Source: Spirochaetales bacterium (GTDB lineage Bacteria; Spirochaetota; Spirochaetia; ARS1246). From it: DNA of 14,449 nucleotides. The stretch is from contig NZCE01000030.1 in NCBI GenBank assembly GCA_002688185.1, positions 1 through 14,449 of the forward strand, in the 5' to 3' direction. Position 1 is the stretch's first letter. Every line of letters begins with the position of its first letter. Made by a program: the position numbers and the translations under genes. The notes under the pieces are model-generated. The model was not told where the DNA came from. It searched no databases and was given only the letters and a program-made list of their open reading frames with translations. Below, piece after piece: positions 312 to 14,449 of the stretch.

Positions 312-593
312 GTGGGTGATGTAAATGGATTCTTAAAAACCAACCAGGCGGCACGGCGGATACAGCTGGAAAGCATTATCGTCCTGCACCGCGCAGAATT
401 GAGCCCAAGGGACATTTTGTCCCTTGGTGAGTCCGGTCGGTATGTCCTCGATACAGAGGCAAACGAGGGCTATGAGCTTCAGATCGGAGAGTCCGTCGTC
501 GCGTTGGGGGAAATAGTTGAGGACGAGGGCGAATACTATTTTGAGATATCGGAAGTGGTGGAAAACCCACCGGAGAATAGGGAGGTTCTATGA
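312..593 (+). CDS. Short SpoA-domain (FliN-like) protein, divergent
   Basis: This 93-residue protein is probably a C-ring (cytoplasmic rotor) component. Residues about 18-82 follow the SpoA/FliN-C pattern: a hydrophobic strand (IQLESIIVLHRAELS), then 'RDILSLGESGRYVLD', a Gly turn, and a final 'VVALGEIVEDEGEYYFEISEVV'. It is clearly more divergent than its downstream neighbour and ends in an acidic, Pro-rich tail. The N-terminal extension of ordinary FliN (about 130 residues) is absent. The start is GTG, with AGGAGG at 301-306 at good spacing. The stop overlaps the next gene as ATGA (590-593), so translation is probably coupled. The SpoA call rests on pattern and context. I infer that it pairs with the next SpoA protein or with the SpoA domain of the FliM part of the fusion. 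It could also be a type III secretion C-ring-type SpoA protein, but FliM/FliG next door favour a flagellar origin. Confidence 0.75.
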   Translation: MGDVNGFLKTNQAARRIQLESIIVLHRAELSPRDILSLGESGRYVLDTEANEGYELQIGESVVALGEIVEDEGEYYFEISEVVENPPENREVL

Positions 594-829
594 AGGCAAA
601 AAGCATCAGCAATATTGTGGTAAATGTAGAGGTTGTTATCGGCACCACCGAGCTTACACTGAGTGATCTTGCATCATTGGGAGAAGGATCGATTATCGAG
701 TTGAGCGCCCTGGCGGGAGAGCCTGTTCTTATGAAAGCGGGAGGCCAAAATTTTGCCAAAGGGGAAGTCGTGGTAATAGATGAATGCTTTGGCATAAGAC
801 TTACGGAATTAGTCTCCGTTGAGGAGTGA
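590..829 (+). CDS. fliN: Minimal FliN-like SpoA protein
   Basis: This 79-residue protein is little more than one SpoA domain, the FliN C-terminal fold that forms the base of the flagellar C-ring. The canonical landmarks are easy to see: 'VEVVIGTTELTLSDLASLGEGSIIEL', then 'LAGEPVLMKAGGQNFAKGEVVVIDECFGIRLTEL', which is close to textbook FliN. It lacks the N-terminal region of normal FliN, so it is at the short end of the family. ATG at 590 is preceded by GGAGG (581-585), overlaps the stop of the upstream SpoA gene by 4 nt, and lies just before the FliM-FliG fusion. FliN normally forms heterotetramer-like units with the FliM SpoA domain and helps bind FliH and CheY. Here two tiny SpoA proteins appear to do this together (inference). 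The gene symbol is by family resemblance. Confidence 0.85.
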   Translation: MKAKSISNIVVNVEVVIGTTELTLSDLASLGEGSIIELSALAGEPVLMKAGGQNFAKGEVVVIDECFGIRLTELVSVEE

Positions 830-834
830 TGCAT

Positions 835-2676
835 ATGGCACATGAAATGATGCTTGGCAAGGATATTTTTGGTCACCGCTTTCAGGCCGATCAGGAATGC
901 AAAATCAAGAAATACAATTTCAAAAAACCCGACAAGTTTTCTAAAGATCAGATCAGAACCATATCAATTATTCACGAGACATTTGCGCGGCTTTCAACCT
1001 CGACTCTTTCGGCAATGCTCCGATCATTGGCGCTTATCCATGTTGCCGCAGTAGATCAGTTGACCTATGAGGAGTTTATCCGGTCGGTCCCAAACCCCAC
1101 GTGTCTCGGCATCGTAAATATGAATCCTCTGAAGGGTATGGCGGTTCTCGAAATAGACCCCTCGTTGACCTGTGCAATTATTGATAGGCTCCTCGGAGGG
1201 AGGGGAGATGGGGCGACAACGGGCCGCGAGTACTCGGAAATAGAAATGGGGCTGATCGAAGGTGTTTTGATTCGACTCCTGGGTGGGCTCCGCGAAGCCT
1301 GGACTCCGGTTTTCAACCTCGCGCCTCTGCTCGGACAGATTGAAACAAATCCCCAGTTTGCGCAAATCGTGCCGCCCACTGAAATGGTGGTGCTTATCTC
1401 CTTGGAGGCAAAAATAGGCGAGGCAGAAGGCATGATAAATTTCTGCGTTCCGTACATCACCATTGAGGCTATCATGTCCAGACTGACAGCAGTGTATATG
1501 TATTCCACGGTGAAACGAAAAGCCAACGTGAGTGAAGTGGCCCCCGATCTGATGTTCGATATAAAGTCGGAGGCTTTAGTGTGTGTATCCGGAGAACGGA
1601 TAAGTCTGGAACGTATTGGAGCGCTCAAAAAAGGTGACAGGATACGTCTGCCCGAGTGGAAAGATGGCGGCGCCTTTATCCGGTCCGGCGGGGTGCCGGT
1701 GCTGAACCTTACGAGACAGGCTCGGCCCGACAGTCAGGGCCTCGAATTTTCGGTAGAGCCTCCCGTCATCACAAAGCTCGAGTTTCTAGAATCCCAAAAA
1801 GCTCCTCCGGAAGCCGATCTGCAGAGAATCGAGGAGCCGCTAATCAAAATGAGCGATGAAATTCGCCGTGGATTTGAATCTCTCCAGAAAAAGATGAGTG
1901 AGTTGAGCTCCTGGCAGGAGAGCGTTGCGGATCAGCTCGAATATGGCGGACCGCCTACGGAGATCCCCGAACACCGGACGGGCGGCCGAAGGCCCTTTGC
2001 GGTCGTCACCCGAGACAATGTTGACTGGCTCGCGTCGGTTATAGGCGTTGAGCATCCACAGCTGATTGGCATGATTCTCTCTTTTCTGAGCTCGGATCTT
2101 GCCTCTGACGTCATCGGAAGACTGCCTGAATCCATTCGCCCCGACATTATTAAGCGGATAGGAACCATAGAAAGGATCGCTCCTCACGTAATTCAAGAGG
2201 TGGAAAGAACCCTCGAAAAGAAAATGCGGGCAATGCCCATGGAAGAAGTTATGAGATCCGGCGGGATCGATACCGCCGTGGGGATTCTGAATTATGCGAC
2301 TCGGAGCATAGAAAAACAGATCATTGAATACCTCGAGGACGATGATCCCGAGCTTGCAGAAGAAATCAAACGGAGAATGTTCGTCTTTGAGGACATCGTG
2401 CTCTTGCAGCCTGAGGGGATACCCAAAATCTACCATGAGGCCGGCCCACAGCAGTTTGCCGTTGCCATGAAGGGGATAATCCATGAAGTACACGATCACA
2501 TATTCAAGTGCTTAAACGAGGAAGATCTCGAAGAGCTGAAATCCGAGCTCGAACAGACAAAGCCGATGCGGTTGTCCGACGTGGAGACGGTTCAGCAGAC
2601 GGTTGTTTCCATAATCAGGAGACTCGAGCAGTCCGGCGAAATCATAGTTGCCCGTGCGGATGAGAAACTTGTGTAG
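835..2676 (+). CDS. FliM-FliG fusion, flagellar motor switch protein
   Basis: This is one uninterrupted 613-residue frame joining two rotor proteins. Residues about 20-225 are FliM: 'YNFKKPDKFSKDQIRTISIIHETFARL', 'VDQLTYEEFIRSVPNPT', the FliG-binding 'RLLGGRGD' (about 118-125), and 'ETNPQFAQIVPPTEMV'. Residues about 237-307 are a FliM-type SpoA domain. Residues about 310-390 are a charged linker with a probable coiled coil (about 325-367). Residues about 392-613 are FliG middle plus C-terminal domains: 'EHPQ' at 406-409, 'EEIKRRMFVFEDIVLL' with MFVF at 515-518, and a C-terminal 'RLSDVETVQQTVVSIIRRLEQSGEIIVAR'. Two parts are missing: the FliG N-terminal FliF-binding domain, and the LSQxEIDALL-type CheY-binding peptide at the FliM N-terminus. 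ATG 835 was chosen because GAGGAG (821-826) sits 8 nt upstream. GTG 826 and ATG 829 are also in frame but too close to it. It starts 5 nt after the fliN-like stop. Family assignment of both halves is very secure; the function of the fused form is inferred. Confidence 0.93.
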   Translation: MAHEMMLGKDIFGHRFQADQECKIKKYNFKKPDKFSKDQIRTISIIHETFARLSTSTLSAMLRSLALIHVAAVDQLTYEEFIRSVPNPTCLGIVNMNPLKGMAVLEIDPSLTCAIIDRLLGGRGDGATTGREYSEIEMGLIEGVLIRLLGGLREAWTPVFNLAPLLGQIETNPQFAQIVPPTEMVVLISLEAKIGEAEGMINFCVPYITIEAIMSRLTAVYMYSTVKRKANVSEVAPDLMFDIKSEALVCVSGERISLERIGALKKGDRIRLPEWKDGGAFIRSGGVPVLNLTRQARPDSQGLEFSVEPPVITKLEFLESQKAPPEADLQRIEEPLIKMSDEIRRGFESLQKKMSELSSWQESVADQLEYGGPPTEIPEHRTGGRRPFAVVTRDNVDWLASVIGVEHPQLIGMILSFLSSDLASDVIGRLPESIRPDIIKRIGTIERIAPHVIQEVERTLEKKMRAMPMEEVMRSGGIDTAVGILNYATRSIEKQIIEYLEDDDPELAEEIKRRMFVFEDIVLLQPEGIPKIYHEAGPQQFAVAMKGIIHEVHDHIFKCLNEEDLEELKSELEQTKPMRLSDVETVQQTVVSIIRRLEQSGEIIVARADEKLV

Positions 2677-2751: not shown

Positions 2752-3723
2752 TTATTCGGACATTTTTGAGACGCTCTTTTCTTCACCAAGCATGCCCTGG
2801 GGCCTGAAGAGAAGGATCATCTCGAGCAACACTCCTATTACCAAAAATCGGATGTATGGCGCCCGGGCTTTTAGGACCGCCGGAAGGGCGAGGTCGGTGA
2901 TAAACTGGGTGCCGACCCAAATGCCCCAAATGACGAAAGCACCGAGTATGACTCCCTTGTTATTCCCGCTTCCCCCCGCCATTACCATGACCCAGATAAT
3001 AAAGGTGCCGTACAACGGAACGAAAACCTCTGGTGAGATAGCGATAGTATAGTGCGCGTAGAGCGCACCGCCGATTCCCATAATCATGGCGCCAAAAACG
3101 AACGCCTGGATTTTATAGCTCACCGTATTTTTGCCGCTCATGGAGGCCGAGACCTCATCCTCTCTAATTGCCCGTAACACCCTGCCCCACGGCGAGCGGA
3201 TGGCCCGTTCAATAATAAAATAGATTGCTACCAGGAAAACGATTACGATGACGAGATAGATGTAATTATAGTACCTTGGCGCAACCAGGCTTTTTAGGGG
3301 TTGGGGAAGTCCGACTAATCCCCTCGGACCGTTCGCCAACCAATGTTCATTATTAAAAATAAGCCGAATGGTTTCAGCGATCCCGATGGTGGTGATTGCC
3401 AGGTAATCGCCGCCGAGGCGGAGAGTAGGACCGGCAATTACCAAAGCAATCAGGCCAGACACCAAAGCGGCGCCGAGGATTCCCAACGGGAACGGGAGAT
3501 TGAGGGCAAAAACTTGTTGCACATACTGTGCGTAGATTCCCGTCGGTTTTGGTGATGTAATCAGAGCAGTGGTGTATGCGCCGACTGCAAAAAAGCCTGC
3601 AATGCCTATGTTAAACAGTCCCGTATATCCCCACTGTATATTGAGACCAAGGCAGAAAATCGCGTAGATGCTCGCCATGATTGCCAGAGACACAATGTAT
3701 GCAAGTATTCCGAGGAGGTTCAC
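2752..3723 (-). CDS. livM: Branched-chain amino acid ABC transporter permease LivM
   Basis: This 323-residue, very hydrophobic inner-membrane permease is one half of the LivHM channel for branched-chain amino acids or related compounds. Family landmarks are 'NIQWGYTGLFNIGIAGFFAVGAYTTAL' near the N-terminus, 'GGDYLAITTIGIAETIRL', 'NGPRGLVGLP', the ATPase-coupling loop 'SPWGRVLRAIREDEVSA', 'GAMIMGIGGALYAH', and 'LLEMILLFRPQGMLGE' at the C-terminus. Length is normal. The start is GTG at 3723, with AAGGGGA upstream. It overlaps the livH stop as GTGA (4 nt), so translation is coupled. It is the last gene of a G-F-H-M operon. The substrate cannot be fixed from sequence: members of this family also carry urea, amides and aromatic acids. 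Confidence 0.93.
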   Translation of the reverse strand: MNLLGILAYIVSLAIMASIYAIFCLGLNIQWGYTGLFNIGIAGFFAVGAYTTALITSPKPTGIYAQYVQQVFALNLPFPLGILGAALVSGLIALVIAGPTLRLGGDYLAITTIGIAETIRLIFNNEHWLANGPRGLVGLPQPLKSLVAPRYYNYIYLVIVIVFLVAIYFIIERAIRSPWGRVLRAIREDEVSASMSGKNTVSYKIQAFVFGAMIMGIGGALYAHYTIAISPEVFVPLYGTFIIWVMVMAGGSGNNKGVILGAFVIWGIWVGTQFITDLALPAVLKARAPYIRFLVIGVLLEMILLFRPQGMLGEEKSVSKMSE

Positions 3724-4634
3724 AGGCGTCCCCTTTTTCCGAATATGCCTTGGGGTTTAATAAGTAGAATAATAATCATGATGAGAAAGGCCACCGCGGG
3801 TTTATACGTAGGAAGTATGATTGCCGTTGATAGTTGCTGGATAATGCCAATGATAAGTCCGCCCACAAATGCTCCGTAAATATTTCCTATGCTGCCGAGG
3901 ATCGTCGCCGCAAAAAGTGGGAGAAGGAAATTCCACCCGAGGGCTGGATGAAGCTGGACATCCACTGCGTAGAGAATCCCCGCCGCCGCGGCCAGCCCGC
4001 CGCCGATAATCCAAGTAATAACGATGATCCTCTCGATATTGATACCGGATATTAACGCCAGGTCCATATTGTCAGCCGTCGCTCGCATTGCTTTGCCCAG
4101 TTTCGTCCTCTGCAGAAAGAGGTGCAGGGCGAAAACCAGCACCATCACCGCCACCAGTATCACCAGCTGATCCGGCCGTATTTTGATGCCAAAAGGAAGC
4201 ATTAGGGCAGGTCTCAAAACACCGGGTCTATAGAACAGAAAATCCGGTCCCCAGATAATCAGTATAATCATACGAATAATAAATGAGGCGCCAAGGGCAG
4301 ACATGGCCAACATGACCCGGCCGGCTCCCTTTCTGCGGAGCTTTCGGTAGAGCGCGCGGTCTATAAAAATCGCCAACCCACCGACCGCGGCCATAGATAT
4401 TGGGAACGAAATAAGAAGACGCCACCCAAAGGACAAACTGCCGAAGGTGGTGTCCGGCACCCCGATCCACGCGAGGGGTCCACTGATGAGAAAGAAGGTA
4501 ATATATGCTCCGCCGGCCATAAACTCGCCGTGGGCGAAATTAGCAAAGTTGAGAATTCCGTATATCAGTGAGAGGCCTATGGCGCCGAGCGAGATAATGC
4601 TGCCGAGCACTATACCGTAAACCAATAGCTCCAA
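3720..4634 (-). CDS. livH: Branched-chain amino acid ABC transporter permease LivH
   Basis: This 304-residue membrane protein is the partner permease of LivM. Typical segments are 'GIVLGSIISLGAIGLSLIYGILNFANFAHGEFM' at the start, 'RKLRRKGAGRVMLAMSALGASFIIR', the cytoplasmic coupling loop 'QRTKLGKAMRATADNMDLALISGINIERI', 'GGGLAAAAGILYAVD', and 'IKPQGIFGKRGRL' at the end. The frame is open further upstream, to 4823, but that stretch overlaps livF and is not LivH-like. I chose TTG at 4634 because GGGAGG (4648-4643, inside the livF 3' end) lies 8 nt upstream and the protein then has family length. ATG at 4673 (MKTWEAYTWEDN...) is the alternative. It starts 4 nt after the livF stop. Confidence 0.9.
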   Translation of the reverse strand: MELLVYGIVLGSIISLGAIGLSLIYGILNFANFAHGEFMAGGAYITFFLISGPLAWIGVPDTTFGSLSFGWRLLISFPISMAAVGGLAIFIDRALYRKLRRKGAGRVMLAMSALGASFIIRMIILIIWGPDFLFYRPGVLRPALMLPFGIKIRPDQLVILVAVMVLVFALHLFLQRTKLGKAMRATADNMDLALISGINIERIIVITWIIGGGLAAAAGILYAVDVQLHPALGWNFLLPLFAATILGSIGNIYGAFVGGLIIGIIQQLSTAIILPTYKPAVAFLIMIIILLIKPQGIFGKRGRL

Positions 4635-4638
4635 AATG

Positions 4639-5358
4639 TTATCCTCCCAGGTATAGGCTTCCCACGTCTTCATCGGCGAGCAGCACTTTCCCCTCGCCCT
4701 CCATAGCGTTTCTCCCCGCGGCAAGGACGTATCCCCGATCCGCCATCCCGAGGGCTTCCCGGGCATTTTGCTCGACGAGAATAATGGATACTCCCGAACC
4801 GTTGATCTCTTGGATTTTCTCAAAGATCATCGATACAAACAGTGGCGCGAGGCTCGCCGAAGGCTCGTCAAGCAATAAGACTTCTGGATCGAGCATAAGG
4901 GCCCTGCCAAGCGCCACAAGCTGACGCTGGCCACCGGAGAGGTTACCTGAGCGCCTTTCCCGTGCCTCTTGGAGCATGGGAAAAAGCTCGTACACCTCTT
5001 CAATTCGACCTTTGTAGTCATCCTCGCGTATGAATGCTCCCATTTCCAAGTTTTCCTGAACCGTTAAAGACGGAAATATATTTTGAACTTGAGGAACGTA
5101 GCTTATGCCCCTCTGCACGATAACATCAGGCTTTAAGCCGTCGATTTGCTCATCCAGAAATCGTATAGCTCCGTGTGTTGGGATCAGAAAGCCAAAAATG
5201 GTTTTTAATAAAGTCGATTTCCCAGCTCCGTTTGGCCCGATGACCGAAACTATCTCGCCACGGTGCAATTTGATACTTACCTCAGTAAGTACGTCCGCCT
5301 CGCCATAGCCGGCGGTCAAATTTTCGACTGTCAGAATCACCTCAGACGTACTGGCCAC
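4639..5358 (-). CDS. livF: Branched-chain amino acid ABC transporter ATPase LivF
   Basis: This 239-residue cytoplasmic ATPase energises the LivHM permease. Visible elements are Walker A GPNGAGKS (about 41-48), Q-loop YVPQ with Q about 90, ABC signature LSGGQ (about 140-144), Walker B VLLLDEPSASLAP (about 160-172), and 'LVEQNAR' in the switch region, where Gln replaces the usual His, as is typical of LivF. GTG at 5358 is preferred because GGAGG lies 9 nt upstream; it overlaps livG by 17 nt. GTG at 5340 would give 233 residues and is almost as plausible. The longer open frame, to 5400, only adds a tail inside livG. Confidence 0.92.
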   Translation of the reverse strand: MASTSEVILTVENLTAGYGEADVLTEVSIKLHRGEIVSVIGPNGAGKSTLLKTIFGFLIPTHGAIRFLDEQIDGLKPDVIVQRGISYVPQVQNIFPSLTVQENLEMGAFIREDDYKGRIEEVYELFPMLQEARERRSGNLSGGQRQLVALGRALMLDPEVLLLDEPSASLAPLFVSMIFEKIQEINGSGVSIILVEQNAREALGMADRGYVLAAGRNAMEGEGKVLLADEDVGSLYLGG

Positions 5359-6103
5359 CCAGATATGCCTCCAAGACCTGTTCATTTTTTTTGATATCAT
5401 CAGGATGACCTTCAGCGAGTTTTGTCCCGGCGCTCATCACGATTACCGGATCGCAGAGATGCATTATGAGATCCATATCATGCTCAATCAGGAAAAACGT
5501 CATGTTTCTCTCTTGCCTGAGCTTAAGAATGTTGTCCGTAATTTTTTTCATAAGGGTCTTATTGACACCGGCTCCCGGCTCGTCCAACAAGACCAGTTTT
5601 GAATCGGCCATCATGGTTTTTGCCAGCTCAAGCAATTTCTTTTGGCCGCCAGAGAGAGTTCCAGCATATTCATCCTTTAAATGGATGAGGCTCACAAACT
5701 CAAGAACTTCGAGGGCCTTTTCCCTGATGTCCTTCTCCTGTGCATGAATGTTGCGGGGCTTAAGCCATGTATTCCATATGTGTTCGCCGTTCTGCGCCGG
5801 CGGGATAAGCATGAGATTTTCCAAAACCGTCATGAGTTGAAACTCTCGTGTAATTTGAAATGTTCGAAAAATGCCTCTGTGGAATATTCGATTGGGTTTT
5901 AGGGCCGTAATATCAGCCCCTTGAAAAAGCACCTTTCCGCCATCTGGCTTGTAGATGCCGGTAATCAAATTGAACAGAGTCGTCTTGCCCGCACCGTTTG
6001 GTCCGATAAGTCCGGTGAGAGAACCTTCAGACACCTCGATCGTGCAGTCACTAATGACCTTCATCGTGCCAAAGCTTTTCTGTAAGTTTTGAATTTCAAG
6101 CAT
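5342..6103 (-). CDS. livG: Branched-chain amino acid ABC transporter ATPase LivG
   Basis: This 253-residue ATPase is the partner of LivF. Walker A GPNGAGKT (34-41) is followed by 'FRTFQITREF' around the Q-loop (Q about 83), the long LivG-specific insert (about 100-125), signature LSGGQKKLLELAK (150-162), Walker B LVLLDEPGAGV (170-180), H-loop 'LIEHDMDLIM' (H about 208), and the LivG C-terminal end 'VLEAYLGG'. ATG at 6103 begins directly with 'MLEIQNLQKSFG', the normal family start, although the ribosome binding site is weak. The frame is open to 6265, but that extension has no family similarity. It is the first gene of the operon. No periplasmic binding-protein gene (livJ/livK) lies next to it, so the receptor must be encoded elsewhere. 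Confidence 0.92.
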   Translation of the reverse strand: MLEIQNLQKSFGTMKVISDCTIEVSEGSLTGLIGPNGAGKTTLFNLITGIYKPDGGKVLFQGADITALKPNRIFHRGIFRTFQITREFQLMTVLENLMLIPPAQNGEHIWNTWLKPRNIHAQEKDIREKALEVLEFVSLIHLKDEYAGTLSGGQKKLLELAKTMMADSKLVLLDEPGAGVNKTLMKKITDNILKLRQERNMTFFLIEHDMDLIMHLCDPVIVMSAGTKLAEGHPDDIKKNEQVLEAYLGGQYV

Positions 6104-6246
6104 CACTTTTTTGGTCCAGCAGCTGAGCGTATGAAAAGGTATCTCAAACCCTGGATATCCGCAAGGGCGCTCAAAAATGCCTGAGATGATCCTGACTATG
6201 GGCATTGCCAATAGATTTCGGCGTCGAAGGTGCGAATGAGCGCAGA

Positions 6247-6262
6247 TGCGAATATATAGCCA
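6247..6262 (-). promoter_or_regulatory. Possible sigma54 -24/-12 element upstream of livG
   Basis: On the minus strand the sequence is TGGCTATATATTCGCA. The GG and GC dinucleotides have exactly the spacing required for sigma54. The -24 half is only partial (TGGC, then TA instead of AC), and the -12 half is TCGC instead of TTGC. It would place a start about 130 nt before livG. It is weaker than the site at 7943-7958. The rest of the 378-base divergent region (6104-6481) shows no confident sigma70 promoter. Confidence 0.22.
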
Positions 6263-6431
6263 CACCGTGGGAAATATGCTGTACTAGCGGTATCGATGAT
6301 AGCCAAAGTCCGACGCAAGCAATTATCCGACCGTGGGCTTCCCGACCTGACCATCGCCGTGCCCGTTCTCATCGTCAATTCAAGCTTTTTTTGTAGGATA
6401 CGATGATATCGAAGGGGCGATACTCCATGTA

Positions 6432-6481: not shown

Positions 6482-7585
6482 ATGGATAAAAAAAAACTCG
6501 GCGTGTTCGCCTCGGGAAACGGGACCAATCTGCAGGCGATTATCAACGCCTGTGACTCAGGTGTGCTGCCTGCCGAGGTGTCGCTGATTATCAGTAACAA
6601 TTCGACCTCGGGTGCTCTGGAACGAGGGAGAAATCACGGAATACATAGGCTGCATCTGAGCACTAGAGCCCATCCGGATTCAGATGAGCTCGATCAAGCT
6701 ATCTATAATGTATTAGTAAGGAATAATATCGAGTTTGTGCTTCTCGCCGGCTATATGAAAAAGCTTGGAAAAAAGGTGCTCTCGGAATTTAGCAATCGTA
6801 TTCTCAATATACATCCGGCGCTTTTGCCAAGGTTCGGCGGAAAGGGAATGTACGGCATCAATGTTCACAGGGCGGTACTTGCGGCAGGAGATGCATTGTC
6901 CGGCGCCACAGTGCATTTAGTGAATGAGCGGTATGATGAAGGCCCCATTCTCAATCAACGAAGCGTTCCCGTGGTTGCGTCCGATACCGCTGAGACGTTG
7001 CAGAGCCGCGTTCTCGGTATTGAGCACACTCTTTATGTGGAGACGATTCAACGCCTGTTGTCGAGGGAGGTGGCGGTCGTTGACCGATATGGACCCGCCG
7101 TTATTCGGCCGGTCGCAGAAGATTGGGAGATCGATGAAGCAGTCAAAACCATACGTCATTCCTTTGAGCCTGTTGCGCGCCGCTTTCATCTCACACGGGA
7201 AAATTGCCCGACTCATCCGAGCTTTCTCGAACGGAATAGACTTGCGATCACGCTGGAGCGCGGAGGGCGTCTCATATCCTGCTATGTTGACGGCAAGATG
7301 ATCGGCTTCTATGCCCTGGAGAAAAGCAGAGACTCCGCAAACGTGATGTACCTCGAGAGACTCTGCGTGCGTCCCGAGAGCCGGCACCGTGGCATTGGAG
7401 CCGCCCTCGTGAACCATTGCTGTACCTTGGCATCAGCGGCCGGTGCTAAAAGAATCTCCATTGGCCTTATCGATGACCATATTGAGCTAAAACGCTGGTA
7501 TCTAAGTCTTAAGTTTATACAGACCGGTACTCGTGATTTTGAGCACCTGCCGTTTACCGTGTGCTTTATGGAGAAAAGCCTTTAG
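6482..7585 (+). CDS. PurN-like formyltransferase fused to GNAT acetyltransferase
   Basis: This 367-residue protein has two domains. Residues 1-205 are phosphoribosylglycinamide formyltransferase (PurN), which transfers formyl from 10-formyl-tetrahydrofolate to GAR in purine synthesis. Visible are the phosphate-binding SGNGTN (11-16), 'NIHPALLPRFGGKGMYG' with catalytic Asn109 and His111, and 'SGATVHLVNERYDEGPI' with catalytic Asp152. These match Asn106, His108 and Asp144 of E. coli PurN, so the domain looks active. Residues about 216-367 are a GNAT N-acyltransferase: motif A 'LERLCVRPESRHRGIGAALV' with the acetyl-CoA loop RHRGIG (301-306), and motif B 'ELKRWYLSLKFIQTG' (335-349). PurN alone is about 200-215 residues, so the GNAT part is extra. 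ATG 6482 is the only usual start before an upstream stop; its ribosome binding site is weak. No other purine gene is nearby. The acyl acceptor is unknown. It may be the cell's PurN or a formyltransferase recruited to another pathway. Confidence 0.9.
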   Translation: MDKKKLGVFASGNGTNLQAIINACDSGVLPAEVSLIISNNSTSGALERGRNHGIHRLHLSTRAHPDSDELDQAIYNVLVRNNIEFVLLAGYMKKLGKKVLSEFSNRILNIHPALLPRFGGKGMYGINVHRAVLAAGDALSGATVHLVNERYDEGPILNQRSVPVVASDTAETLQSRVLGIEHTLYVETIQRLLSREVAVVDRYGPAVIRPVAEDWEIDEAVKTIRHSFEPVARRFHLTRENCPTHPSFLERNRLAITLERGGRLISCYVDGKMIGFYALEKSRDSANVMYLERLCVRPESRHRGIGAALVNHCCTLASAAGAKRISIGLIDDHIELKRWYLSLKFIQTGTRDFEHLPFTVCFMEKSL

Positions 7586-8219: not shown

Positions 8220-9796
8220 TTATCTCTGGCGCTTGATATTCAACTTTTTCATTCTCGCCTCTAGTGTGGTTGGCTTCATTGCCAGCAGTTCGGCGGCACC
8301 ATCACTTCCTCGCACCTTCCAGCCCGTCATCTCCAGTACTTCAATGATGTGTTCACGGTCCTTTTCTTCTAACGTGGGAATAGATGTAGAGTTTGAAGAA
8401 AGGGAGGAGTTGGAAAGCCAATCTCCCAATTCGAGCTTTTTTCCTCGGCTTATTATCACCGCCCGTTCGACAATATTCTCAAGTTCCCTCACATTGCCCG
8501 GCCAGTCATACGCCTGCAGCGCCATCATGACGTTGCTTGGCACGGCATCTATCGCCTTACCGATTTTAGCGCCGTACTTTTTGATGAAATGTTCCACCAG
8601 CAGAGGGATATCTTCTCCACGTTCCCGCAATGGCGGACATCGAATCGGAAATACATTCAGCCTATAGTAGAGATCTTCACGAAAATCGCCGTTCGCTATC
8701 GCCTGTTCCAGATCCCGGTTCGTGGCAGCCATAACCCGCACGTCCACATTGATAGTGCGCGCGCTTCCCAGCCGCTCGAGCTCACCCTCCTGAAGCACCC
8801 TCAGCAGCTTGGCCTGCAGCTCCAGAGGCAGCTCAGCAATTTCATCCAGGAAAATGGTGCGCCCTCGTCGGCCAGTTCGAAACGTCCGATCCTGCGCCCT
8901 TGCGCTCCCGTAAACGCCCCTTTTTCATGTCCGAATAGCTCGCTTTCGATGAGGTTGGCCGGCAACACCGCGCAGTTCACTTTGACCAACGAGCGGCTTT
9001 TGCGGGCACTGATGCTGTGAATGGCGCGGGCCAGCAGTTCCTTGCCGGTACCGCTTTCGCCGAGAATCAGTACGGTGGCATCGGTCCCGGCGACCTGCTC
9101 GACATTTTCCAGCACTTTTCTGAATTTATCGCTAATACTGATGATTTCTGTGAAATCATGGGACAGCCTAATTTCTTGCTGAAGGTATATGTTTTCCTCC
9201 TGCAGCCGATTCTTTAGCTCTTCGACTTCCTGAAGTGCGTTTTTCAGTTCCGCCGTCCGCTCGGTTACCCGCCCCTCCAGTTTTTCGTTCACCTCCTGGA
9301 GCTCCATCTCTGCCCGTTTCCGCTCGTGAATTTCCTGCTTCAACTGCTCGTTTGACTTTTCAATCTGGAGCAGGTATGAATTTTCTTGGTCGTTCCATTT
9401 TTTCTTTTCTAAGCAAGAGTCCAGCCTGGCTTGCAGAATAGCGGTATTGAATGGCTTGCACAGGTAATCTTCCGCCCCCAGCTCGATGCACCTCACCACG
9501 CTGTCCATCTGGTCCGCAGCCGAAATCACAATGATCGGTATGTGACGCAGAGCGTTGTCGGCCTTCAGACGCTCCATGACCTGATAGCCGTCCATATGCG
9601 GCATTATAATATCCAGCAAGATCAGGTCCGGACCTTCCTCTTTTGCTTTTTGCAAGGCCTCCACACCGTTGAAGGCCTCTAACACCTGGTAACCTTCATG
9701 CAGCAATCGATCGCGCAAAATCCGCACATTCCTTGGAACGTCGTCGACCACGAGGATTTTTGATCGCTCAACCATTTTATTTAATTTCTCATCCAT
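8220..9796 (-). pseudogene. Sigma54-dependent response regulator with 1-base frameshift
   Basis: This NtrC-type activator is split into two frames. Restoring one base gives a protein of about 525 residues. The first frame has a receiver domain (DD about 18-19, phospho-acceptor Asp62 in 'LILLDIIMP', Lys114), then a long coiled-coil signalling helix (about 130-210), then the start of the AAA+ domain with Walker A GESGTGKE (246-253) and the sigma54-contact loop GAFTGA (293-298). After 'GRFELADEG' the frame is lost, near 8856-8866. It resumes in the frame read from 8798 to 8220 with '...LQEGELERLGS', 'VRVMAATNRDLEQAI', 'FREDLYYRLNVFPIRCPPLRERGEDIP', 'WPGNVRELENIVERA', and a Fis-type helix-turn-helix (AAELLAMKPTTLEARMKKL). 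Codons through the gap spell the usual '[21 protein letters not shown]' in the shifted frame, so one base is missing from GGCGCACC. It may be a sequencing error or a true recent mutation. The start is ATG 9796; TTG 9829 is an alternative. Confidence 0.9.
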
Positions 9797-9856
9797 ACTA
9801 TTATGCCGCCCAAAAATGGCGTTTCTCAACCCCGAATCGCGCCCATCTGTTTGCCC

Positions 9857-10225: not shown

Positions 10226-11112
10226 TGCTTCCTCTTTGCCGGGAGTGTAAACCAAAACGTCGAACCCGCACCGACTTCTGATTCTGCCCAAATTTCGCCG
10301 CCATGCATCTCTACGAATTTTTTGGCAATGGACAGGCCCAAACCCGATCCCTGTACCTCTCGCTCGATCGAGCTATCAACCTGCTGGAATTCGTCAAAGA
10401 TGTTTTCGAGCTCGCCCTTGGGGATGCCGATACCCGTGTCCGACACCCAGAAGAGAAGATCTTCTTCTTTGGTCTTGGCCCCCATTCTGACTTCACCCTT
10501 TTGAGTGAACTTGATCGCGTTTCCCGCAAGGTTTGACAAAACCTGCGTGACACGCTGAGGGTCGAAAGTGCAAAGAGGCAGCTCCTCGTGAATCTCGGTC
10601 GATATTGCCAGTCCTTTCTCCATTGCCAGAGATGCCAGCCTTCCTATCACGGTTTCGATGCAATCCTCGGCAGCGTTCTCGGAAGGCCGCAACTCCATCC
10701 GGCCGGCTTCTATCTTCGAGATGTCGAGCACGTCATTAATCAATCCCAGCAGATACTCGCCGCTTTTTTGAATCTCCCCAACCACCTCTCGTATCTCCGA
10801 TGCTACTTCCCCGTAGATTCCATCGAGTATCATTTCAGAGAAACCGATGACGGAGTTCATCGGCGTTCGCAGCTCGTGGCTCATGTTGGCGAGGAAATCG
10901 CTCTTTGTGCTGTTGGCGGCCTCCGCCGCTTCCCGCGCCTTTTGCAGCTCTATATTTGTTGTTGCAATCTCCTCGTGCAATGTTTGGAACAACTTGGAAT
11001 TCCTATCGCACCGTGCCTCCAGCAATCTTCGGCTTTTCTCAATTCGCTGCAGACTGTGCCCCAATAACCGGTTTTCTTCACGCAGTTTTTGGATTTGATT
11101 GTCAGCTGACAT
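10222..11112 (-). CDS. Soluble hybrid-type histidine kinase without sensor domain
   Basis: This 296-residue kinase has no transmembrane segment, PAS, GAF or HAMP domain. Residues 1-70 are a predicted coiled coil. The H-box is '[22 protein letters not shown]' with His79. The ATPase domain has the N-box around '[13 protein letters not shown]' (191-203), G1 DTGIGI (225-230), F-box 'FDEFQQVD', and G2 GSGLGL (255-260), ending at '[14 protein letters not shown]'. It resembles the kinase core of hybrid (BarA/ArcB-like) kinases, but without attached sensor or receiver. ATG 11112 overlaps the stop of the upstream FIST gene as TAATG, and its own stop overlaps the response regulator start. This tight coupling suggests that the FIST proteins supply its input and the separate receiver its output (inference). 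Confidence 0.93.
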
Positions 11113-12278
11113 TATTCCAAACCAATCAATAGCGTGACAAATGTTCTGGAATGATATCTGGAAGGATTGTAGCGGTTTAAAGGCCCCAGTTCCCCATAGG
11201 TATAAAAGCCCGCTATCGGGAGGTTAGGAAAACTACTCTGCAGAACCTCGTATTCATCTTTTATCCTCGTTCCCAAAATCTCCTTGCGTATCGCACATGA
11301 AAAGCAAAAGGCAACCGACGGTTTAGAGCCGGGGTATTCAGTCAAAGCCGAGTGGACTGACTTTTTTGCCGCTTCAATTATATTATCTCTGGTTGTGTGT
11401 GCTATTTGAACCGTAACTCCTTCGGGAATAACCGATCCAAATGTTATGCTCCCTTTCTCTTCATCATAAGCTTTTATAGAGGGCAAATAGAAGCTTTCTC
11501 GGTCGTCTTCGAAAACTGCTAGCGGATACTCGGTTACGTAAGGTAGATCGATCGGCCAATCGATTTCGCCAATGTAGTATTCGAAGAAATCCGTAGCGGA
11601 CCGATTGCCGATTCTGTAAACGGTGTTCTGATCCGACCGAGTCACTCGTGCTTTTGATCCGACCGGCATCCATCCGTTTTCTGCGCCAAAAGAAAACAAC
11701 AGCCCGCCGGCGAGAAGGAGAAATGGAACAGCATCAGCAAACACTTCATTCTTATAAAACTGATAGGTTACCTTGTGTCTATACTGATCCGCAGCACAAC
11801 CGCCGAAAATCGGAAAATTCTCTCCCAGGCCCTGCTGCAGACCTTCCAGTACGCGATCAGCACGAGCCATCAATCCCTGGGGAGTTACAATGCACAGTTT
11901 TGGCTCCTGACCCAAACTCGATCTTGCTGTTTCGATTGCTTTTTTGAGAGAAGTATAAGGGTCTTCGGAAACTCCTTCTGCCATTCCGGCTTTGAAAGAT
12001 AATTCTTCGGAATAGAAGAGCGTCAGGACTATGGAATCATCAGTAAATCCATGGACCGACGACATTTCACCATCGGTCGTGCATCCGATGAGCTCTATCC
12101 CTGGATACGTCTCATTGATCCTGCCGAGAATCCGTTTAAAATTATGATTAATTCCCGCGAAAAGCATTCCCGCCTGGGGCCGCAGCTCCCCCAGCGTTTC
12201 ACGGGTTTGTTTCAGTACTTCTTCTACCGCAACCTGAGAGTCGAGCTCTGTGCTGTGGGCAATTGCTGTCTGCAGCAT
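11112..12278 (-). CDS. FIST-domain sensory protein (copy 1, kinase-proximal)
   Basis: This 388-residue cytoplasmic protein has FIST N (about 35-220) and FIST C (about 225-375) domains. The family is proposed to bind small ligands such as amino acids and pass the signal to kinases or other partners. Landmarks are '[10 protein letters not shown]' (65-74), '[12 protein letters not shown]' (155-166), '[24 protein letters not shown]' (202-225), 'CFSC' (325-328) and '[11 protein letters not shown]' (357-367). There is no signal peptide or membrane segment. ATG 12278 matches the start of copy 2. It begins 8 nt after the copy 2 stop, and its own stop overlaps the kinase start. The first 43 residues are identical to those of copy 2, while the C-terminal half is much more divergent. 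Confidence 0.92.
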
Positions 12279-13444
12279 GGGCGCACCTACTCTAAACCTA
12301 TTAGCAGCGTTAAAAAGGTATAATTATGCCTTCTGGAATGCTTGCCCCTATTCAAAGGTCCTATTTCTCCATAGCTATAAAAACCCGTCATAGGAAGATC
12401 TGGGAAATTGCCCTTCAAAACCTGGCATTCTTCTTCAACTCTCGTTCCTAAGATCTCTTTTCGTCCGCAACAGGAAAAACAAATGGCAACCGACGGTTTA
12501 GAGCCGGGATATTCAGTCAGCGCAGAATTGATCGACTTTTCTGCCGCTTCTATGACTTTGTCTCTGGTCGTATGCGATATCTGAACCATAGCACCCTCGG
12601 GAATATTTGCCCCAAAAGTCATGCTTCCTTTCTCTGCATCTGCAGCATGATGCGTAACAGCTGCCAAATAAAAGCTCTCCCCGACGTCCTCAAAAACTGC
12701 CAGCGGAAAACCGTCAAAATCCAAATCGCCTTCTCCAAGATAATGTCTGTAGAAATCTACCGCCGACTGGTTGCCGATTTTGTAAACGGCATTGTGATCC
12801 GCGTGAGTCACTCTTACTTTTTCCCCATCCGGCATCCAGCCGCCTTCAATACCAAAGGAAAACAACAGAGGACCGGCGAACAGCAGAAATGGGACTGCAT
12901 CAGTAAACACCTTTTTGCCATGAAATTGATATGTTTTTTGGAATCTGTACTGGTCCCCGGCGTTGCCCCCGAAAATCGGAAAAGTCTCTCCCAGGCCCTG
13001 CTGCAGGCCATCGACGACGCGATTAGCACGAGCCATCATTCCCCTGGGAGTTACAATGCACAGTTTTGGCTCTTGACCCAAACTCGATCTTGCTGTTTCG
13101 ATTGCTTTTTTGAGAGAAGTATAAGGGTCTTGGGAAATCCCTTCAGCCACTCCGGCTTTGAAAGCCAATTCTTCGGAATGGAAGAGCGTCAGGACTATGG
13201 AATCATCGGCAAATCCATGGGCCGACGACATTTCACCATCGGTGGTGCACCCGATGAGCTCAATTCCCGGATACGTCTCATTGATCCTTCCGAGAATCTG
13301 GTCAAAATCATGATCGATTCCCGCAAAGAGCATTCCCGCCTGGGGCCGCAGCTCCCCCAGCGTTTCACGGGTTTGTTTCAATACTTCTTCTACCGCAACC
13401 TGAGAGTCGAGCTCTGTGCTGTGGGCAATTGCCGTTTGCAGCAT
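12151..13444. repeat. Tandem gene duplication with near-identical 5' ends
   Basis: The first 128 coding bases of FIST copy 1 (12151-12278) and copy 2 (13317-13444) differ at only 5 positions by my direct comparison. A further block encoding the middle of FIST N (around 11885-12130 and 13050-13290) is also very similar. Similarity falls off clearly in the FIST C part. Copy 3 is more distant throughout. Confidence 0.85.
12287..13444 (-). CDS. FIST-domain sensory protein (copy 2)
   Basis: This 385-residue paralogue of its neighbours has the same FIST N / FIST C layout: '[14 protein letters not shown]', 'FPIFGGNAGDQYRF', 'GWMPDGEKVRVTHADHNAVYKIGN', '[14 protein letters not shown]', 'GFYSYGEIGPL'. 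ATG 13444 is preferred over GTG 13450 because AAGGAG lies 5 nt before the ATG. Differences from copy 1 cluster in the FIST C part, where there is also a length change near 'YLGEGDLDFDGFPLAVFED', consistent with different ligand preference. It is the middle gene of three in tandem. Confidence 0.92.
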   Translation of the reverse strand: MLQTAIAHSTELDSQVAVEEVLKQTRETLGELRPQAGMLFAGIDHDFDQILGRINETYPGIELIGCTTDGEMSSAHGFADDSIVLTLFHSEELAFKAGVAEGISQDPYTSLKKAIETARSSLGQEPKLCIVTPRGMMARANRVVDGLQQGLGETFPIFGGNAGDQYRFQKTYQFHGKKVFTDAVPFLLFAGPLLFSFGIEGGWMPDGEKVRVTHADHNAVYKIGNQSAVDFYRHYLGEGDLDFDGFPLAVFEDVGESFYLAAVTHHAADAEKGSMTFGANIPEGAMVQISHTTRDKVIEAAEKSINSALTEYPGSKPSVAICFSCCGRKEILGTRVEEECQVLKGNFPDLPMTGFYSYGEIGPLNRGKHSRRHNYTFLTLLIGLE

Positions 13445-13484
13445 GTTCACTCCTTTCCGGCAGGAAATTAGCGGAAGCCGAAAG

Positions 13485-14449
13485 TTACTCCGTGCCTATT
13501 AGCAGCGTCACAAAAGTCATATTGTGGAATCTGCAAGGCTTGCCCTTGTCTAGCGGCCCTATCTCCCCGTAAGTGTAATACCCGGCTATGGGAAGGCTTG
13601 GGAACTCGCTTTTCAGAGCCTGGTATTCTTCTTCAACTCTCGTCCCCAATATTTCTTTGCGGGCTGAGCAGGAAAAACAAATAGCGACCGATGGTTTTGA
13701 ACCGGGATATTCAGTCAACGCCGAATCAACCGACTTTTTTGCAGCTTCAATAATTTGGTCTCTGCTGGTATGGGCTATCTGGACTGCAGCGCCTTCCGCT
13801 ATAGTCGAATCGAAAACTATGCCTCCTCTCTCCGCGTCATACGTCCTCGCAGATGCTAAATGGAAGCTTTCACTGTCATCTTCGAAGACTGCAAAAGGAT
13901 ATTCCCTCATAAACTCCAGATCGCCTTCTCCGAGATAGTGGCCGGAAAACTCTACAGCGGACCGGTCTCCGATTTTTGAAACAGTATTTTTATCTGCTTC
14001 GGTTACCTTGGCTCTTTCGCCGATTGGCACCCATCCGCTTTCAATTCCAAATGAATACAACAAAGGACCTGAGAGCAAAAGAAATGGAACCGCATCAGTA
14101 AACACCTTGTTATTTTGAAATTGATAAGTTGCCTTAAATCTATACTGGTCTCCGGCGCAACCGCCGAATATGGGAAAATCCTCTCCCAAGCCCTGGCGCA
14201 AGCCTTTTATGAGAGGATCAGCCCATTCCAGAATGCCCCGTGGCGTTACAATACATAGTTGGGCTTCTTGAACCAAATCAGGTTTTGCTGTCTCAGCTGC
14301 TTCTCTGATGCAGGCAAGAGGATCGTCGGTAATATTTTCGGCTACTCCGGCTTTAAAAGACAATGGGGGTATGCACTTGACTCCGGTACACACTACATCT
14401 GGTGTCGTCGGACCTGAGTGCGGGAGCACTTGACCATCGAGCTTGGGGG
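13485..14449 (-). CDS. FIST-domain sensory protein (copy 3), partial at window edge
   Basis: About 320 residues of a third tandem FIST protein are visible; its 5' end lies outside the window. From 'LSFKAGVAEN' onward it aligns along its whole length with copies 1 and 2: '[14 protein letters not shown]', 'GWVPIGERAKVTEADKNTVSKIG', '[20 protein letters not shown]', 'GYYTYGEIGPL'. The last 85 bases (14365-14449) look unlike the other copies at DNA level. The frame stays open to the edge, and the spacing of 'DGQ', 'SG', 'T' and 'DVVCT' faintly follows the FIST pattern. I read it as one continuing, divergent gene rather than a start at GTG 14429. It ends 40 nt before copy 2 starts, and the operon promoter must be beyond the window. 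Confidence 0.85.
   Translation of the reverse strand, partial: PKLDGQVLPHSGPTTPDVVCTGVKCIPPLSFKAGVAENITDDPLACIREAAETAKPDLVQEAQLCIVTPRGILEWADPLIKGLRQGLGEDFPIFGGCAGDQYRFKATYQFQNNKVFTDAVPFLLLSGPLLYSFGIESGWVPIGERAKVTEADKNTVSKIGDRSAVEFSGHYLGEGDLEFMREYPFAVFEDDSESFHLASARTYDAERGGIVFDSTIAEGAAVQIAHTSRDQIIEAAKKSVDSALTEYPGSKPSVAICFSCSARKEILGTRVEEEYQALKSEFPSLPIAGYYTYGEIGPLDKGKPCRFHNMTFVTLLIGTE

Follow-up and report, generated by a model that had tools for sequence, protein, structure and literature searches.

The locus described here raises the question of whether the flagellar switch proteins FliM and FliG occur naturally as one chain and, if so, what such a chain does in the cell. The window, meaning the whole stretch of 14,449 nucleotides from a Spirochaetales bacterium that was analyzed, contains a single stop-free frame at 835-2676 on the plus strand, which runs from an ATG at 835 to a TAG ending at 2676 and encodes 613 residues. 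A GTG at 826 and an ATG at 829 are other possible in-frame starts, and the residue numbers of the PF02154 match are those of the 616-residue frame. A sequence-only reading of this DNA had proposed that FliM and FliG are naturally fused in a cassette with two SpoA genes, one chain carrying FliM middle and SpoA domains, a linker, and FliG middle and C-terminal domains. This was borne out by the Pfam and NCBIfam domains found in the one frame and by the two SpoA genes directly upstream, with the refinements that the SpoA domain is degenerate and the linker is predicted to be helical (Table 1).

In the window fusion, the Pfam families FliM (PF02154), FliG_M (PF14841), and FliG_C (PF01706) scored 244, 75, and 104 bits, each above its cut-off. 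The NCBIfam model fliM_switch (TIGR01397) matched residues 20-286 with 256 bits (cut-off 219.6), and the NCBIfam fliG model matched residues 390-613 with 191 bits, under its cut-off of 226.7. Because the fliG model aligned only from its position 111 onward, FliG_N is absent from the window fusion. A match to PF14842 (FliG_N) overlies FliG_M (residues 415-492), as it does in all 10 further members scanned (11/11), and is attributed to the repetition of the fold, as a cross-hit, rather than to a FliG_N. The SpoA domain at the end of the FliM part was not detected by Pfam at E ≤ 1; it was picked up solely by the fliM_switch model and by a Foldseek match to whole FliM chains, and is present but degenerate. 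The N-terminal CheY-binding motif is absent. Both sides of the FliM-FliG contact, GGxG (as GGRG) and EHPQ, are kept in the window copy as had been claimed, and so is the MFVF hinge of FliG. An AlphaFold model calculated from a 98-row alignment had a mean pLDDT of 85.3 and a pTM of 0.60, with a linker helix of 41 residues. The FliM part of the model matched FliM middle-domain chains in Foldseek with an rmsd of 1.0-2.2 Å at 30-40% identity, and window FliM shares 52-55% identity with the separate FliM proteins of the 10 genomes found to carry a fusion. FliG_C alone matched Thermotoga maritima 1qc7_B at 1.4 Å, whereas FliG_M and FliG_C taken together gave only loose matches (rmsd 11-18 Å). We are highly confident of the resulting anatomy, i.e. 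FliM followed by a helical linker in the position of FliG_N, then FliG_M and FliG_C, in a cassette of the order spoA1-spoA2-fliMG.

Table 1. Features of the cassette in the window
Feature	Position	Strand	Remarks
spoA1, degenerate SpoA protein	312..593	+	93 aa; PF01052 30 bits
spoA2, FliN-like SpoA protein	590..829	+	79 aa; PF01052 74 bits
FliM-FliG fusion protein	835..2676	+	613 aa; FliM, degenerate SpoA, helical linker, FliG_M, FliG_C
FliM middle domain	913..1485	+	PF02154, residues 30-220 of the 616-residue frame
FliM GGxG motif (GGRG), FliG-binding	1195..1206	+	
Degenerate FliM C-terminal SpoA domain, limits approximate	1552..1764	+	fliM_switch to 286; strands 247-307 in model; Foldseek
Linker helix, in the place of FliG_N	1819..1941	+	residues 329-369, DSSP of predicted model
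FliG middle domain	2026..2238	+	PF14841
EHPQ motif, FliM-binding	2050..2061	+	
FliG C-terminal domain	2329..2646	+	PF01706
Place of the torque helix	2521..2547	+	E, S, E vs E. coli K-12 FliG R281, D288, D289 (alignment)

The two upstream genes, spoA1 and spoA2, overlap by ATGA, and spoA2 ends 5 bases 5' of the ATG at 835. SpoA1 was modeled with a mean pLDDT of 74.5, and its best 41 PDB matches were all SpoA-type chains or FliM; the best match by fold was FliN (E 3e-4), and the folds of SpaO and HrcQb matched as well. A counterpart in the same place was present in 10/10 genome loci, one of them cut by a contig end. These counterparts are 16-26% identical to window SpoA1, and 0/10 reach the PF01052 cut-off. 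Window SpoA2 passed the PF01052 cut-off and scored 76.9 bits against TIGR02480 (fliN; cut-off 84.05). In 10/10 genomes a SpoA2 counterpart above the PF01052 cut-off lies beside the fusion, its stop codon starting between 6 bases before and 5 bases after the fusion start. SpoA2 retains the GEVVV-type patch of FliN, which we take to have a FliH-related role.

A chance fusion, an assembly error, or a decaying gene was weighed as an explanation of the frame. In precomputed Pfam assignments, 119 of the 120 listed matches (of 3194), the window's own cluster included, carried FliM, FliG_M, and FliG_C in one chain. P0005 lacks FliG_C, and P0107 has all three domains but is apparently corrupt; these two damaged or short entries are what speaks for error or decay. 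P0107 was also considered as a SpoA2-FliM-FliG triple fusion and rejected, as its joints are missing and its end is garbled. The 90% cluster of the window fusion was found on 5 contigs. At least 10 of the 392 Spirochaetota genomes scanned carry a full-length fusion, and the same 10 were picked in scans with the window protein and with the divergent L140 fusion. The count is a lower bound because at most three candidates per genome were scored and 14 likely genomes were followed up in the window-protein scan. All 10 loci showed two SpoA frames upstream of one frame with FliM, linker, FliG_M, and FliG_C, as in the window. For the locus pair L147/L148, dN/dS (NG86) was ~0.29 for the fusions, ~0.26 for the linker, and 0.23-0.24 for the SpoA genes; the L140/L142 fusions gave 0.35, and all genes tested in the two pairs fell within 0.22-0.35. 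The linker is thus under purifying selection in L147/L148, one locus pair. The fusion genes of L147 and L148 also have ~25 extra residues in the FliM middle domain past the GG loop. The earlier argument against a chance deletion is supported by these data; chance fusion, error, or decay is refuted for the family and is very unlikely for the window copy.

Three of the 120 listed matches had organism-named sources, all Spirochaetales metagenome-assembled genomes (MAGs). At E ≤ 1e-60 the window protein matched 333/392 Spirochaetota genomes, mostly through FliM among the matches listed; the weakest spirochaete fusions were found at 1.7e-70 with P0001 as query and at 3.7e-62 with the L140 fusion as query. 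In 299 Bacillota genomes all matches listed cover FliM or FliG alone, with at most four candidates per genome scored, so that a weak fusion could escape. A mobile origin was considered and rejected, as 93 plasmid records matched and none had one place covering >80% of the query. A viral origin was likewise rejected: three stretches in viral contigs matched the pattern, and none codes for a relative. One fusion-free spirochaete genome (G213) has two separate FliM genes (L114, L125). Some fusion members are already named 'FliM/FliG' by annotation pipelines. No description of a natural FliM-FliG fusion was found in searches of the open PubMed Central literature; most subscription journals lie outside it, and the absence is no proof.

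Trees were built from 43/129 fusions on the FliM side and 43/127 on the FliG side, about half of the spirochaetal FliG, and Spirochaetota sequences with a Bacillota outgroup. Within this Spirochaetota and Bacillota sampling, both halves of the fusion derive by tree position from spirochaetal fliM and fliG. In the FliG tree, 42/43 fusions formed one clade (support 100, and 99 in a second tree); P0041, from a contig of 1,969 bases, fell outside, its FliG half lying among separate FliG. In a first FliM tree, which lacked the native FliM of the carriers G001, G012, G323, and G170, all 43 fusion halves formed one clade (99). When those four FliM were added, 41 fusions stayed together (100), and L141, the fusion of G012, joined G012's own FliM together with P0063. 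The L141 middle domain grouped with that native FliM (L127) at supports of 100/99, and a single fusion clade was not rejected in an AU test (p-AU 0.19; 18 fusions vs 23 others). Over the first four 45-column blocks, the L141 middle domain is 67-73% identical to G012's own FliM vs 47-60% to two other fusions, whereas its SpoA end is closer to other fusions than to the native FliM. Local recopying is therefore as likely as a second origin: the trees may reflect one origin, after which the FliM middle domain was recopied, or several origins. Gene conversion between the native FliM gene and the fusion is possible in G012. Apart from the fusion, G001 (C127:42084-42764) and other carriers, at like places, encode a further distant FliG-like protein of ~400 aa, which brings the FliG-type genes of several carriers to three. 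In the FliG tree, the second FliG-like protein of G001 (L084) fell outside the main spirochaetal FliG on a long branch.

Within 6 kb of the cassette, 77 frames were collected, of which 9 (3 of them SpoA2 frames) were left out, giving 68 neighbors. The scan is incomplete because of these omissions and because the longest-frame choice missed genes of GC-rich loci (the AraC-type regulators of L144 and L148). An AraC-type regulator (HTH_18) adjoins the cassette in 8/10 loci, and the other two contigs end just upstream. MotA was considered as a conserved neighbor and dismissed, the neighbor of ~264-296 aa being the AraC-type regulator. Histidine kinases lie directly 3' of the cassette in L140 and L142. 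Two MCP-signal and two GGDEF proteins were counted among the 68 neighbors; the two MCP-signal proteins were not re-located in a later neighbor check. GGDEF proteins (one with EAL) that carry Cache sensor domains occur within 6 kb of the cassette at L140:14348-16846 and L144:4225-5910. The 25 most frequent of the 78 Pfam families in these neighbors include no flagellar structural family and no secretion family. The latter result bears on a sorting or export platform, in which a SpoA base would bind FliH and ferry the export ATPase or substrates, by analogy with SctQ pods, under a polymerizing FliG cap. The patch kept in SpoA2 and the SpaO, HrcQb, and FliN folds matched by SpoA1 would suit such a platform, but besides the lack of secretion neighbors the retention of FliG_M and FliG_C would be odd and FliH binding is putative, so that we consider it improbable.

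In the window itself, 10 proteins were scanned beyond the cassette, none of them flagellar. Branched-chain amino-acid ABC transporter genes occupy 2752-6265 (-). Their LivM shares 75-76% identity with named deltaproteobacterial proteins and 76% with a protein of one Spirochaetota genome (of 10 genomes tried), and these identities hint at transfer between phyla. At 6482-7585 (+), a PurN formyltransferase is fused to a GNAT acetyltransferase; the two full-length relatives that are named and have a stated organism come from Spirochaetales MAGs, and at E ≤ 1e-50 no full-length match was found in 198 Spirochaetota genomes, two of which matched PurN alone. A sigma-54-type response regulator at 8220-9829 (-) is broken into two frames (8801-9829 with the receiver and the beginning of AAA+, 8220-8798 with the remainder), which is either a frameshift or a sequence error near the frame border. 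At 11112-14429 (-), three tandem proteins of ~314-388 aa follow, of which that at 11112-12278 has FIST and FIST_C and the other two look alike by eye.

The functions that the fusions kept and lost were assessed by comparing 129 fusions (FliM side) and 127 fusions (FliG side) with 49 separate FliM and 74 separate FliG; P0005 was dropped everywhere, and P0096 and P0107 were removed by the FliG coverage filter. As given in the accessible part of PMC6700473, FliG_N is the FliF-binding part, EHPQR and GGxG form the FliG-FliM contact, and LSQxEIDALL is the CheY-P site. The CheY motif L[ST]Q.[ED][IV] was found in 11/129 fusions vs 47/49 separate FliM (strict form, 3 vs 44), and 21/129 fusions had at least a [LM][ST]Q start. 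The positions of R281, D288, and D289 are named as stator-interacting in the accessible text of PMC11528121, and 281 and 289 also in that of PMC7564593. All three charges (R/K281, D/E288, D/E289, E. coli numbers) were present in 0/127 fusions vs 73/74 separate FliG; two were kept in 6 fusions, one in 34, and none in 87. Position 281 is R in 73/74 separate FliG, whereas 71/127 fusions have A or E. Position 288 is E in 74/74 separate FliG and in 11/127 fusions, and position 289, D or E in 74/74 separate FliG, is R in 60/127 fusions. The MFVF hinge was well preserved (M in 116, F in 123, V in 122, and F in 123 of the 127). Site retention, the mean share in fusions of sites ≥90% conserved in the separate proteins, was 0.88 and 0.79 for the FliM middle domain and 0.5 for SpoA (5 sites). 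On the FliG side it was 0.86 for the hinge, 0.72 for ARM_C, 0.60 for FliG_M, and 0.59 for helix MC; toward the FliG end it was 0.43 before the torque helix, 0.27 in the torque-helix region, and 0.67 after it.

With no FliF-binding domain, a CheY motif in few members, and a full stator-charge set in none, the fusion is, judged by its sequence, probably not a torque-generating rotor. The loss of FliG_N, of the CheY tail, and of the torque charges, like the AraC neighbor, had gone unnoticed in the sequence-only reading. A caution on torque-blindness comes from a Salmonella gfp-motB fliG(R281V) strain, which still swims according to the accessible text of PMC7564593; the torque-loss argument therefore rests on the joint loss of the charges. 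The sequence-only reading had taken the fusion for a functional rotor whose FliM and FliG are held at 1:1 within the flagellar C-ring, and had related it to a FliG/FliM symmetry mismatch. That bearing did not hold. In the accessible parts of PMC11087270 and PMC11528121, Salmonella structures have 34 FliG to 34 FliM and FliG:FliM:FliN at 1:1:3, and the mismatch reported is that between MS-ring and C-ring. Since ordinary C-rings are already 1:1 in FliG:FliM, the argument is outdated. Moreover, the genome search for the domain order that had been suggested gave separate FliM and separate FliG in 10/10 fusion-carrying genomes. In these 10 genomes the fusion is thus an extra copy, and this, together with the missing FliG_N and the lost stator-facing charges, makes it unlikely to be the rotor. 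The contact motifs and hinge of the window copy would fit a locked rotor, and its own genome, outside the 10 compared, may be fusion-only, but against these results we regard it as very improbable.

The contact motifs themselves gave a divided picture. GGxG was complete in 111/129 fusions vs 49/49 separate FliM, and EHPQ in 103/127 fusions vs 45/74 separate FliG (EYPQ in 26). Both were complete in 95/127 fusions and both changed in 10/127. Among the 10 genome loci, however, GGxG was complete in 3 and EHPQ in 1, and 7 of the 10 doubly changed fusions were found there. Contact of the standard type with native FliM and FliG is therefore doubtful in these genomes. In L140, L142, L144, L145, L147, L148, and L149, GGxG and EHPQ have changed jointly, to G[AS].. 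and ER.Q, which looks like a remodeling of the contact from both sides. As these fusions belong to one clade, the joint changes represent few independent events. Identity within the FliM domain over 45 pairs each from the 10 genomes averaged 40% (25-82) for the fusions vs 81% (64-99) for separate FliM, and the fusions thus diverge fast. Exactly one FliF match was found in 9/10 carriers, on the contig of the separate FliG, and none in G064.

These results were weighed for two uses of the fusion. That a torque-blind paralogue acts on the flagellar motor is a guess, to which we give a little less than an even chance. It would be favored by the intact contact motifs of the window copy and of 95/127 fusions, by the FliN patch kept in SpoA2, by the coexistence with separate FliM and FliG and a single FliF, and by the MCP-signal and GGDEF proteins among the neighbors. 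The G012 fusion, whose middle domain resembles that genome's own FliM as if recopied, would agree with a requirement to stay compatible with the native component. Against this stand the few complete motifs in the carrier loci, the fast divergence, and the lack of flagellar structural families among the 25 most frequent neighbor families. The contact motifs lost in most carriers and the recopying seen in G012 speak for opposite readings and leave our estimate unchanged. Alternatively, the fusion and the two SpoA proteins may form a FliF-free scaffold independent of the flagellum, a cytoplasmic ring or arc for sensing, localization, or a signaling platform. The absence of FliG_N and of a second FliF, the missing torque-charge set, the divergence from native FliM, the joint motif changes, the adjoining AraC-type regulator, and the histidine kinases of L140 and L142 would agree with it; the motif pairs kept in the window copy and most fusions, and the SpoA2 patch, would not. 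All 10 carriers also have flagellar genes, but so broad a share of the phylum matches the window protein that this weighs little. We regard the scaffold as only slightly less likely than action on the motor. Its more specific form, a self-contained, stator-blind, non-rotary C-ring of the fusion and two dedicated SpoA proteins, assembled FliF-free in the spirochaete cytoplasm under AraC control, is a little less likely again.

The best reading is a switch paralogue that is torque-blind and AraC-linked. Spirochaetal fliG and fliM copies have been joined in one gene, with a helical linker behind FliM in the place of FliG_N, and the cassette is retained next to an AraC-type regulator by genomes that also encode FliM and FliG separately. 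The family has kept the FliM middle domain, the MFVF hinge, and part of the armadillo stack; it no longer has the FliF-binding domain or the stator-facing charge set, and most members lack the CheY tail. The fusion chain with SpoA1 and SpoA2 may form a C-ring-like subunit, perhaps on a FliM:FliN-like 1:3 base, that could polymerize but would neither hang from the MS ring by itself nor take torque. The sequence shows the core of a rotor ring that lacks anchor, input, and teeth and is accompanied by a SpoA pair of its own and an AraC neighbor; from this we infer conditional, torque-blind C-ring material.

Each part of the fusion has known relatives. It resembles FliM in the middle domain with GGxG but is fused to FliG and, in the window and most members, lacks the CheY tail. 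With FliG, it shares FliG_M with EHPQ, the MFVF hinge, and the FliG_C fold, and it groups with the main spirochaetal FliG; unlike FliG, it has no FliG_N and has lost the torque-helix charges. Borrelia FliG1/FliG2 likewise present an extra FliG paralogue with a divided role, which is not described as fused to FliM in the accessible part of PMC7225975. FliF-FliG fusions of Salmonella and E. coli strains put FliG in frame with a ring partner, and one deletion fusion also lacks FliG_N (PMC6700473, accessible part); however, these are mutant strains, the partner is FliF, and the proteins are still motor parts. SctQ/SpaO and FliN, by fold matches, also place several SpoA domains in a switch unit, but without a FliG part.

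In the fusion family, switch genes of a single phylum have been duplicated and fused and have lost motor functions, so that nature itself has set apart the parts that build the switch ring from those that turn it. If rings form without FliF, a C-ring could be built with no MS-ring as template, and structural work would gain a soluble subunit in which FliM and FliG are linked. If the fusion acts on the native motor, it would represent a new class of motor modulator.
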